This document shows positions 28,978 through 31,081 of a stretch of 40,701 nucleotides of DNA, in pieces. A program made the position numbers and the translations under genes. The stretch is taken from the NCBI GenBank assembly GCA_030531085.1, contig JAUNOM010000023.1, forward strand, positions 1 to 40,701, read 5' to 3'. The first letter of the stretch is position 1; every line of letters begins with the position of its first letter. The notes beneath the pieces were generated by a model. The model did not search any database. It was not told the DNA's origin and was given only the letters and a program-made list of their open reading frames with translations. The stretch is from Prevotellaceae bacterium. GTDB taxonomy: Bacteria; Bacteroidota; Bacteroidia; Bacteroidales; Bacteroidaceae.

Positions 28978-29670
28978 TTAGACTTCTATCAATATCGCCG
29001 TATAGTTATCATCACCCTGCTTCTCACAAATAGAGTCGTAGGCATCAAGTGCCTCCGCAAGAGACTTGTTGTCCATCATAATTGACAGAAGAACATCCGG
29101 TTTCATGCTTTTATGCAGGCCATCGGAGCAGAGTAACAGACGGTCAGCCGGCTGTAATTCATACTGCACCACATCAGGAACAGTAACATCCGGACGGTAG
29201 GAGAAGAAACATTTTGTAACAACCTCCCAACCAAAGTCAAGACGCACATGGTCTTTCGTCTGATATAACAGCCCCGCACCAGGCCTCAACAAGTAGCAAC
29301 GGCTGTCACCGACATACGCTATAGTCACCCTATTGCCCTCTATGCTTGCCATAACCATTGTCGTCCCCATCTCCAGATGTCCCATAGAGTGAGACCGTTC
29401 ATCTAAAGCCGCACAAGCCTGTCGGCAGACTTCTTCCACCTTTTCCTTACTATCAGGCTCATTTGCCTGCGTCTTCCAGAAGTCAGTGATGATGTTTACA
29501 ACCGTCTCACTTGCCACTTCTCCCATGGCATGACCTCCCATACCATCGCAGACAATACCCATGAAGCGTTTATTAACGGGCAGTTCCACAACCCCAAATG
29601 CGTCTTCATTGTTTCCACGTCTGCCTTTTTTGCTTATCGTTGCGTACTTAACATTCATTTTATCCACCAT
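28978..29670 (-). CDS. PP2C family protein serine/threonine phosphatase
   Basis: A 230-residue metal-dependent phosphatase. Family motifs: RRGNNEDAF (18-25, D23), VCDGMGGHAMGE (40-51, D42), AYVGDSRCYLLR, LLLCSDGLHK and GDDNYTAIL near the C-terminus. It acts on phospho-Ser/Thr proteins in the cytoplasm. The start could be 29670 (MVDKMNVKY) or 29658 (MNVKY). No cognate kinase or FHA protein is in the window. First gene of a three-gene cassette, 124 bases before the ADP-ribosylglycohydrolase. Confidence 0.92.
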   Translation of the reverse strand: MVDKMNVKYATISKKGRRGNNEDAFGVVELPVNKRFMGIVCDGMGGHAMGEVASETVVNIITDFWKTQANEPDSKEKVEEVCRQACAALDERSHSMGHLEMGTTMVMASIEGNRVTIAYVGDSRCYLLRPGAGLLYQTKDHVRLDFGWEVVTKCFFSYRPDVTVPDVVQYELQPADRLLLCSDGLHKSMKPDVLLSIMMDNKSLAEALDAYDSICEKQGDDNYTAILIEV

Positions 29671-29730
29671 ATTTATATTGATTGAACTTCGCTTTCCATT
29701 TAATTCTCACAGCCCCTTATACAAGATTTA

Positions 29731-29751
29731 TAACCATCTCTATCAACAAAA
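29731..29751. repeat. Imperfect direct repeat, copy on the 5' side of the cassette
   Basis: TAACCATCTCTATCAACAAA and one further A match 27244-27264 in 19 of 21 bases. It lies 60 bases upstream of the PP2C start. Confidence 0.45.
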
Positions 29752-29810
29752 ACCGCACCAACTTCTTTTTTGAAATACTTTATATGACATGACATCATGC
29801 TAAAGACTAA

Positions 29811-29862
29811 GAAAAAAGGATGCCCGGGTATTCCAAATTGAAAACCCGGGCATCTTTATTGC
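29811..29862. terminator. Bidirectional terminator hairpin
   Basis: GATGCCCGGGT (29819-29829) pairs perfectly with ACCCGGGCATC (29844-29854). It is flanked by CTTTATTGC on the plus side and by a T-rich run on the minus strand (complement of AAGAAAAAAG). On the minus strand it lies just after the decayed gene fragment and ncRNA candidate. Confidence 0.75.
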
Positions 29863-29918
29863 TATGCTATACATCTACAGTCTGCCCATCCCTAAGGCAT
29901 CTACCATCTTTAGTGGCA

Positions 29919-30155
29919 TCAATAAGCATCGTTAACAAAGAACTTCTTACCACCTTTTATAATTATAGAACGTAAATGCGGACTGACTAAACGTCGCCCT
30001 TGCAGGTCATAAACAGTCCCATTACCATGTATAAAACAACCCTCCGAGATCCATAGTATATATACTTGCATAAACCTCCATTCCACCTAAGCGCGTTTCC
30101 TTGGACACAACCACCCTATCATCTCTATCGCTTAGATAAAATGAATTGTGATATA
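29919..30155 (-). pseudogene. Remnant of a secreted protein, C-terminal tail only
   Basis: On the minus strand the frame ending at 29919 reads NGTVYDLQGRRLVSPHLRS, then IIIKGGKKFFVNDAY and stop. This resembles the conserved tail (YDLQGRR ... NGKK) of many secreted Prevotella proteins. Upstream, a different frame reads SFYLSDRDDRVVVSKETRL and MEVYASIYTMDLGGLF before a stop near 30023. Together they look like one C-terminus split by a frameshift, with the rest of the gene missing. The upstream end merges into the ncRNA candidate. Tail recognition is by eye. Confidence 0.5.
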
Positions 30156-30160
30156 CACAA

Positions 30161-30487
30161 CAAAAAGAACGTGGGCCCACACCTTAACTCGTCTGTAACT
30201 TTAGGTCGTAGGAAACCCCAATAACATAAACGAGAAGATGTATGCCCACGTTAATATGATACACGTACCCGAAAAGCGTGCAGGAGGGCATGATGACTGC
30301 CCTCTGCACACTCCGGATAACATAGTGTCATATCCGCCAGCACTCACCTTACACTTAGTCTTGTGTTATTGTTTTGAATTTCCTACGTTCAAAGTTACAC
30401 TGACAAAGCGTTAGTGACGCTTGATTATTATGTATCGTTCCGTCCACACAGCCATAAACCGTTATGGCAACGGCTGCCGATTGAAAC
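30161..30487 (-). ncRNA. Structured non-coding RNA candidate (about 325 nt)
   Basis: The minus-strand transcript from the promoter at 30493-30524 would be highly structured. A long closing rod forms from GTAACTTT (30398-30391) with AAAGTTAC (30202-30195), CGTAGGAAA (30387-30379) with TTTCCTACG (30215-30207), and CAATAACA (30371-30364) with TGTTATTG (30226-30219), 25 bp in all. Inside are hairpins CGGATA/TATCCG, a stem of about 17 bp around GTGCAG/CTGCAC (about 30280-30320), and GTGTAT/ATACAT, whose loop holds AACGTGGGC (30252-30244). That loop can pair with GCCCACGTT (30176-30168), directly followed by CTTTTTG. Two further hairpins lie at the 5' end. There is no ORF. The rod suggests a 6S-like or other Bacteroidales-specific RNA; the class is not certain. 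Confidence 0.6.
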
Positions 30488-30492
30488 TGCAA

Positions 30493-30524
30493 CAAAGGTA
30501 AAAATAATTTCTGAATAAATCAAA
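30493..30524 (-). promoter_or_regulatory. Consensus promoter for the ncRNA candidate
   Basis: TACCTTTG (30500 to 30493, minus strand) with TTTG at 30524-30521 and a 20-base spacer: an exact match to the Bacteroidetes pattern. No protein gene starts downstream. Confidence 0.75.
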
Positions 30525-30590
30525 GAAAACTGCAAAAAACTTTCTTTTGGCCGAAAAAAAGTTTTTCATGACACTTCCGGACGCAAAAAC

Positions 30591-30644
30591 ATCAAATTGA
30601 CAAATTGTCACAAAAACGGCCTTTTTTGTGACAATTTGATTTTT
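30591..30644. repeat. Long hairpin repeat, family C copy 1
   Basis: CAAATTGTCACAAAAA (30601-30616) pairs perfectly over 16 bp with TTTTTGTGACAATTTG (30623-30638), followed by ATTTTTG. The outer word ATCAAA and the 3' ending TTTGATTTTT match copy 2 at 30975-31020. Confidence 0.7.
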
Positions 30645-30730
30645 GAAAATGTCGACTTTACTTTGCAAAATAGAAAGGAGATATGTCTGTTTCTGGCACT
30701 TTTCTGAACGGGAAATATGCTATGGGCCGC

Positions 30731-30818
30731 AATTTGATAGCTATTACACTGCAAAAGCTATCAAATTACACTGCAATCTCTATCCTTTCACAAGGTAAAA
30801 GCTATCAAATAGGAGCGC
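30731..30818. repeat. Interspersed repeat, family A copy 3
   Basis: AATTTGATAGCT (30731-30742) is perfectly inverted as AGCTATCAAATT (30756-30767), with ATTACACTGCAA between. It then continues ACACTGCAATCTCTAT like copy 1, and AAGCTATCAAAT again at 30799-30810. An 8-bp inverted repeat, TAGGAGCG/CGCTCCTA (30810-30853), adjoins. Confidence 0.75.
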
Positions 30819-30974
30819 AAAAACGCCCATTTCGTGGCATTTTCACGCTCCTATTTATCGCCTATATTCATAAAACACTAACAGTCAGACGGTTCCATTT
30901 TAGCGAAAAACTGCGTTATTTTGAACCGAAGGAAAATAATTTTCAAATACGCGATTCTCCGAGTACCACGAAAT

Positions 30975-31020
30975 ATCAAAGTGTCAGAAAAAGAAGGGTT
31001 TTCGTGACACTTTGATTTTT
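30975..31020. repeat. Hairpin repeat, family C copy 2
   Basis: ATCAAAGTGTCA (30975-30986) pairs perfectly with TGACACTTTGAT (31005-31016), followed by TTTT on the plus strand. It lies about 60 bases past the stop of the minus-strand S4 gene and could serve as its terminator as well. A partial echo, TTTTTCATGACACTT, lies near 30562. Confidence 0.65.
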
Positions 31021-31081
31021 CACCCCTACTCTACGGGAACACTCCTGCCCTACATTTACACTGTGACCAAAACAGCAGACA

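Follow-up and report, generated by a model that had tools for sequence, protein, structure and literature searches.

A structured RNA of a Prevotellaceae contig as one copy of a Bacteroidales family of 5' leaders that may attenuate transcription

A 40,701-nt stretch of DNA from a Prevotellaceae bacterium (assembly GCA_030531085.1, contig JAUNOM010000023.1; "the window" is this whole stretch) contains a promoter-like sequence followed by a long, strongly folded region that no annotation explains. Is this region a free-standing small RNA, as the original prediction made from these letters proposed, or does it belong to something larger? We searched for relatives of the RNA, evaluated its fold by covariation and asked what lies around the copies.

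The window RNA and its fold

The minus strand from 30487 to 30155 is a strongly structured RNA behind a Bacteroidetes-type promoter (all window features given here are on the minus strand). The promoter (30493..30524) is formed by TTTG (-33) at 30524-30521 and TACCTTTG (-7) at 30500-30493, and the 40.7-kb window has three occurrences of the pattern TTTG-N17-23-TA-N2-3-TTTG, counting both strands. The region 30490-30150 folds at -134.1 kcal/mol, compared with a shuffled mean of -92.1 (z -7.2), and none of 100 dinucleotide shuffles was as low. This fold and the promoter at 30524-30493 bear out the claim that a strongly structured RNA, absent from the annotation and served by a promoter of its own, lies here.

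The transcription start was placed by promoter spacing. From about this point extends a 5' hairpin, P0 (30437..30487), which in the window copy lacks the putative antiterminator strand of other copies. The core leader RNA (30155..30435) matches all 283 positions of our covariance model R1 with 185.2 bits, a score obtained by a copy that was also part of the R1 training set. It is closed by helix P1, whose 5' strand (30425..30435) pairs with 30160-30153 after the U run; P1 is paired in 66% of the cells of an alignment of 100 copies. Within it lie the hairpin P2 (AAGCGT...ACGCTT, 30406..30422; 99% of cells paired) and helix P3 (30355..30407, pairing 30407-30398 with 30365-30355; 94%), which encloses hairpin A, or P4 (30393-30373; 86%). 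A rod follows (30254..30335, pairing 30335-30306 with 30281-30254), capped by the hairpin GAGGGC...GCCCTC at 30304-30284 and missing from a compact subfamily described below. The stem of hairpin B (30182..30238) joins 30238-30225 with 30195-30182 and is paired in 92% of cells. A terminator-like helix, T (30161..30252), is formed by arm a (AACGTGGGC, 30252-30244) and arm a' (GCCCACGTT, 30176-30168) and is followed by CTTTTTG; the piece containing it folds at -38.7 kcal/mol.

The two arms of T had been taken for a 9-bp pseudoknot. The helix is present, but in the conserved structure it is nested and encloses one hairpin, as a terminator-like helix and not a pseudoknot. Covariation backs a different, 17-bp pseudoknot, PK1, in which GTAACTTT (30398-30391) and CGTAGGAAA (30387-30379; together 30379..30398) pair with strands in the loop of hairpin B (30195..30215), namely AAAGTTAC (30202-30195) and TTTCCTACG (30215-30207). 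Since P4 and the outer eight pseudoknot pairs overlap, they are in part mutually exclusive.

A dispersed family of leaders

The window RNA is one copy of a dispersed family of 5' leaders of about 280 nt. BLASTN found one further copy in the own genome and hit 22 of 200 genomes of a genus set and 63 of 301 of a family set (own genome counted). R1 was built from 23 copies of one subfamily (283 positions, 66 pairs). In the own genome it gave 16 matches at E 0.001, of which 14 stand at E 1e-8 or better; the two dropped were a match at E 1.1e-5 and one, at 32.9 bits, to the window copy's antisense strand. In the family set 189 of 249 genomes, the own included, matched at E 0.001, six of them with a best E above 1e-8, and copy numbers there are lower bounds because scoring was limited to the seven best candidates of each genome. 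Of the 247 genomes in an order sample, 33 matched at E 1e-10 (own included). In a phylum sample, where the filters were stricter and six candidates were scored for each genome, none of the 295 other genomes matched at E 1e-12 and the own genome was the sole match of 296.

Among the matches listed, records carrying the P2 motif include Bacteroides finegoldii DSM 17565, Phocaeicola coprocola DSM 17136, Xylanibacter ruminicola D31d and X. caecicola, and the corresponding loci (L121, L167, L157 and L146) match R1. Two exact-motif contigs with unlikely titles, one named Clostridia (L135) and one Bacillota (L161), also match R1 and are taken as putative mislabelled bins, and two others, titled Moraxella (L115) and Rhizobium (L175), gave no R1 match at E 1e-12. 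Low-scoring matches call for caution, as a true copy can score up to 32.9 bits on its antisense strand; for this reason promoter, pseudoknot and downstream partner were taken into account as well for the own-genome matches of 41-55 bits (L093-L100), although these features are not complete in every one. By eye, one of these matches (L094, C47:2710-2955) is just the 3' half of a leader, following immediately on a tRNA-like sequence as though the 5' half had been replaced, and another (L097) is a shorter copy. Three further copies (L013, L015 and L016) are truncated, with an abrupt sequence divergence inside the RNA.

We also considered plasmids or phages as the main carriers. The subfamily-1 query matched no phage and no plasmid record, the subfamily-2 query matched three records in a search of plasmid records, and one viral contig carries the P2 motif, ends 19 nt behind it and has no R1 match. 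With few plasmid records and one viral contig without a model match, this idea is unsupported.

Covariation was evaluated by counting cells changed on both sides of a pair. In 93 copies (91 distinct) there were 541 such cells against 183 in shuffles, a value reached by none of 500; P2 is invariant in this count because those copies had been fetched by an exact match to the P2 motif. In the 100 copies of two subfamilies the count was 646 against 188, none of 500 shuffles came as high on any of five measures, and slid controls were far lower. The weakest helices there are P1 (66%) and T (64% of cells paired), against 99% for P2. For the pseudoknot between hairpin A (30398-30379) and the loop of hairpin B (30215-30195), whose columns were chosen on the same sequences as tested, 257 double changes were found against 83 (0 of 500 on four measures), and its 13 pairs with a double change were reached by 11 of 500 shuffles. 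Pairing A with its own B scored 21.5, against 15.6 with swapped partners (105 copies). The alignments follow the structure of the model to which they were fitted, each helix score is a simple sum, and these shuffles preserve nothing beyond base composition. Compensatory changes in relatives had been named as a check on the original prediction; the RNA is kept in relatives, with the both-side changes just given.

No Rfam 15 family reached its gathering score in the window. A permissive scan of 29680-31080 (E up to 10) returned 26 weak matches, every one of them under its cut-off and none plausible inside the leader. Twenty homologue loci at curated score yielded only tmRNA, tRNA and abiF RNA, all outside the leaders; 14 loci at E 0.5 yielded two weak microRNA matches under cut-offs, one of them antisense to the leader (L027); and ten loci at loose E yielded a group II intron that lies well away from the leader of L167, along with below-cut-off matches outside leaders. 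The abiF RNA (RF03085) at 1306-1342 of the minus strand of locus L233 lies about 230 nt upstream of the leader match. As we take Bacteroidales-1 and 6S RNA to be among the 4227 models scanned, these and other Rfam families were rejected as identity, no covariance model matching inside a leader. The suggestion of a 6S-like or Bacteroidales-1 free-standing RNA is not supported, as the homologues are mostly 5' leaders before genes. Our literature search, which covered listings and text passages, found no description of this RNA, which may still exist unnamed in a list; such a leader is not named in the accessible portions of PMC10994844 and PMC8040213. Taken together, the sequence comparisons strongly support a real and apparently undescribed family of structured leaders.

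Position before genes and the competing pairings

Of 107 distinct copies, 93 have a -7 motif of the form TA-N2-3-TTTG at most 130 nt upstream of the model start (19.7 copies on average and at most 29 after shuffling). Behind the leader, 100 of the 107 copies have a same-strand open frame by a simple longest-frame rule, and in 68 of these 100 the start codon stands 50-70 nt past the model end; in the annotation of a Phocaeicola dorei plasmid, a CDS begins 62 nt beyond the BLAST match. In most copies the RNA thus lies on the strand of the gene, between promoter and start codon and at a nearly fixed distance from the latter, as a cis-acting 5' leader should. We dropped a conserved upstream open reading frame starting at a core AUG, because this AUG is CUG, GUG or absent in several copies, that of the window included.

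The genes behind the leaders are diverse, and their shares depend on sampling, mostly via one exact motif: of 82 downstream proteins, 11 match Dam-type DNA adenine methyltransferases (PADLOC agrees on these 11), five SPFH/Band 7, four GYF_2 and three N6_N4_Mtase proteins, and N6_Mtase, glycosyltransferase 2, CsgG, LRR_5 and NusG are matched twice each. A crude rule for signal peptides is satisfied by 32 of 84.

Among 122 full-length copies, 103 have five or more U in the eight nucleotides directly behind helix T, whereas 7.4% of all windows of these leaders are as rich in U. The family accordingly has a terminator-like helix and a U run behind it, with T paired in 64% of cells and a T score of 21.0, against 18.1 in the partner-swapped control. 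The U run is weak in some copies (three U only in L003 and L011, interrupted in L008).

Arm a has a second possible partner. In 60 of the 122 full-length copies a strand of P0 pairs with a at a score of at least 18 (with P0 shuffled, 11.05 copies on average and 16 at most), with 41 of 97 copies in subfamily 1 and 19 of 25 in subfamily 2. Where it exists, this pairing outscores T in 52 of 60 copies, so T alone need not be an efficient terminator. Partner swapping lowered the P0:a score from 19.8 to 17.4 in all 122 copies and from 26.8 to 22.3 in 52 copies picked by score and motif. The two strands change together, as in ATACCCACGCC/GGCGTGGGTAT, TGCCTACGCCG/CGGCGTAGGCA and CCTCACGCCGATA/TATCGGCGTGAGG. 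An antiterminator as a universal feature was rejected: it is seen in those 60 copies, and the other 62, that of the window included, have no 5' pairing with a above threshold.

Arm a' also has another partner. It pairs with the region before the start codon at a score of at least 16 in 93 of 122 copies, against 20.9 in shuffles, and falls below this threshold in 29; its partner-swapped control gave 14.5 against 17.3. The partner is often the loop of a hairpin, D, as in GGGTATC/GATACCC, GGATGTC/GACATCC and GGGCTTC/GAAGCCC.

Compact copies of 181-191 nt (L310-L319) were found in other Bacteroidales families. They lack the rod, and by eye all ten have a P2-like hairpin, the A-B pseudoknot and T, the U run being interrupted in L316 and L318. 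In these copies, again by eye, a hairpin stands directly before a; its 5' arm, CTCACGA in one example, can pair with a, there TCGTGGG. Three of the ten (L310, L312 and L313) have a GGGACTT further downstream, matching AAGTCCC of a'. One genome (G877) has six compact-subfamily matches. Our best argument for attenuation is that a competitor for a turns up again here, but in another position.

We consider it likely that these structured 5' leaders of Bacteroidales, the window RNA among them, act in cis as transcription attenuators. RNA polymerase would make the leader after initiation; pairing of a with a' would then stop it at the U run and release an RNA of about 325 nt, and capture of a by the 5' strand (or by the local arm in the compact subfamily) would let it read through, after which hairpin D would capture a' and latch the open state. 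The leader, which many Bacteroidales carry directly before defence, capsule and secreted-protein genes, would thus most likely decide between an early stop and transcription into the gene. The core of P2, P3 and pseudoknot, which contains conserved positions, is likely the sensor or factor-binding part. It is also conceivable, though we propose it tentatively, that one common signal acting via this core switches all the paralogous attenuators of a genome, about a dozen in the present one, as a single regulon; restriction-modification, capsule antiterminators, glycosyltransferases and secreted proteins would then be linked in one RNA-controlled surface-and-defence response across Bacteroidales.

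The leader could instead be a cis element in which T is structural and not a terminator, translation or mRNA stability being controlled through hairpin D and the pseudoknot near the start codon. The near-constant distance to the start codon, the pairing of a' with hairpin D just before it and the weak U run of some copies fit such an element; however, at least five U of eight stand directly behind the helix in most copies (103 of 122), and a competing pairing for its 5' arm has no obvious use if the helix is purely structural. We regard this explanation as rather improbable.

Another explanation concerns UpxY, which reportedly keeps transcription from ending early within the untranslated 5' leaders of capsule loci (PMC7819879, PMC7315117, PMC9409006; the accessible portions of these papers). 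The leader might mainly be a loading site for NusG paralogues of this type, which would carry polymerase through, the signal being the supply of UpxY. In favour of this, apart from the reported action in 5' leaders, a same-strand leader match at E 0.01 lies upstream in five of 30 upxY loci, each of which passes the family cut-off (one of the five is truncated at the contig end), and some leaders precede UpxY-like genes, with products over the NCBIfam cut-off behind L091 and L236 and below it behind L096 (cut by the contig end) and L019. However, 25 of the 30 upxY loci have no leader match, although some leaders may have been missed because the loci reach at most 1.5 kb per side and R1 comes from one subfamily, and the downstream proteins are mostly those of other genes, with UpxY matches in two of 82. 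As the main role of the leader this seems unlikely; it is compatible with attenuation, and both can be true. The UpxY-like proteins behind L091, L096 and L236 have a common N-terminal extension with a GGG(E/D)(F/I)PP motif.

Fate of the window copy and relation to known systems

The promoter of the window copy had been described as having no gene after it. This is right for an intact gene close by, but an open frame of 55 codons ending in KKFFVNDAY lies downstream in the open-frame list (29919..30086). The frame (30086-29919) has no Pfam or NCBIfam match, and its VYDLQGRRL...KKFFVN presumably resembles the ends of secreted Prevotella proteins; our guess is that it may be a remnant of the gene once behind the leader. 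A strong terminator-like hairpin with a T run (29812..29855) separates it from a PP2C-type phosphatase gene (28978..29670; Pfam/NCBIfam), about 490 nt from the leader. This phosphatase has a second copy in the same genome, 65% identical. No synteny of leader and PP2C neighbour was found, the top-scoring PP2C match in the other 59 genus genomes being 34% identical.

The switch parts of this copy are unequally preserved. Its T score of 24.0 is the highest of the twelve listed copies of its genome; its P0 scores only 11.2 with arm a, where eight of the other eleven reach at least 25, and the best downstream pairing with a' scores 13.4, below the threshold of 16. As the terminator is kept and the antiterminator strand, the hairpin D partner and a close intact gene are absent, the window copy most likely always terminates. 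It appears to have lost its gene, and is most likely an orphaned leader, permanently terminating and yielding a short orphan RNA.

This bears on the view from which we started, a free-standing small RNA acting in trans. The window copy, with promoter and terminator and no intact gene close behind, looks like one and may for this reason still make a terminated RNA of about 325 nt, and early termination at any other copy would also release an RNA of this kind. However, most homologues precede a gene at near-constant spacing, so that of the proposed regulatory RNA the free, trans-acting form is not upheld, and we judge it improbable.

Upstream of the leader, the window contains a composite palindromic intergenic repeat (30585-30860) with 80 matches in the own genome; 57 of the 80, when merged, give 40 places. 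It lies within 1.2 kb upstream of five of the 14 own-genome leaders and downstream of none, where 0.28 per side would be expected under a uniform spread, which ignores intergenic bias. A near-perfect hairpin palindrome is also found there in two 44-nt copies, 77% alike (30601-30644 and 30977-31020), the first falling inside the repeat. That the family itself is a dispersed DNA repeat or mobile element and not an RNA, as its many copies per genome before different genes and the separate palindromic repeat upstream of five of 14 copies might suggest, is hardly credible given the strand-specific order of promoter, RNA and start codon, the double-sided compensatory changes, pseudoknot included, the failure of the subfamily-1 query to match a phage record and the viral contig that ends 19 nt behind the motif.

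If the attenuator reading is true, the Bacteroidales, common gut and rumen bacteria, would have a layer of gene control that is missing from Rfam: a pseudoknotted leader of about 280 nt reused many times per genome before capsule, phage-defence and secreted-protein genes. It would give a testable account of how such genes stay off by default, and a new structured RNA core whose signal can be sought. Some orphan or '5' UTR-derived' small RNAs of these species would then be terminated leaders. In B. thetaiotaomicron, 13.5% of mRNAs are reported to have 5' UTRs longer than 100 nt, and UTR-derived sRNA candidates exist (PMC7366714, in its accessible portions).

How does the family compare with known systems? 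Among structured RNAs, 6S RNA has a long helical rod and Bacteroidales-1 is a structured Bacteroidales RNA with a promoter, and the present RNA shares with them both the promoter in Bacteroidales and the rod; unlike them, it is multi-copy, stands in cis-leader position and has no covariance-model match in the leader. Transcription-attenuating riboswitches and T-box leaders have mutually exclusive antiterminator and terminator pairings downstream of a folded core, and our leaders likewise have a folded core and, in about half of the full-length copies, candidate pairings of these two kinds that would compete. In contrast to riboswitches and T-boxes, the family has no Rfam match, its putative antiterminator strand is its own 5' end or a local hairpin, and an extra partner for the 3' arm of the terminator, hairpin D, follows the terminator. 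The capsule leaders of Bacteroides controlled by UpxY resemble the family in being long leaders between promoter and gene with a reported premature stop, and some family copies precede upxY-like genes, whereas most copies examined here precede other genes; the published leaders were compared by their description in the accessible text. LoaP of Bacillus, as described in the accessible part of PMC12691694, is a specialised NusG paralogue that works with a structured leader before terminator-laden operons. The pairing of such a paralogue with a structured leader is what would liken it, by description, to the family, with the difference that LoaP recognises a hairpin.
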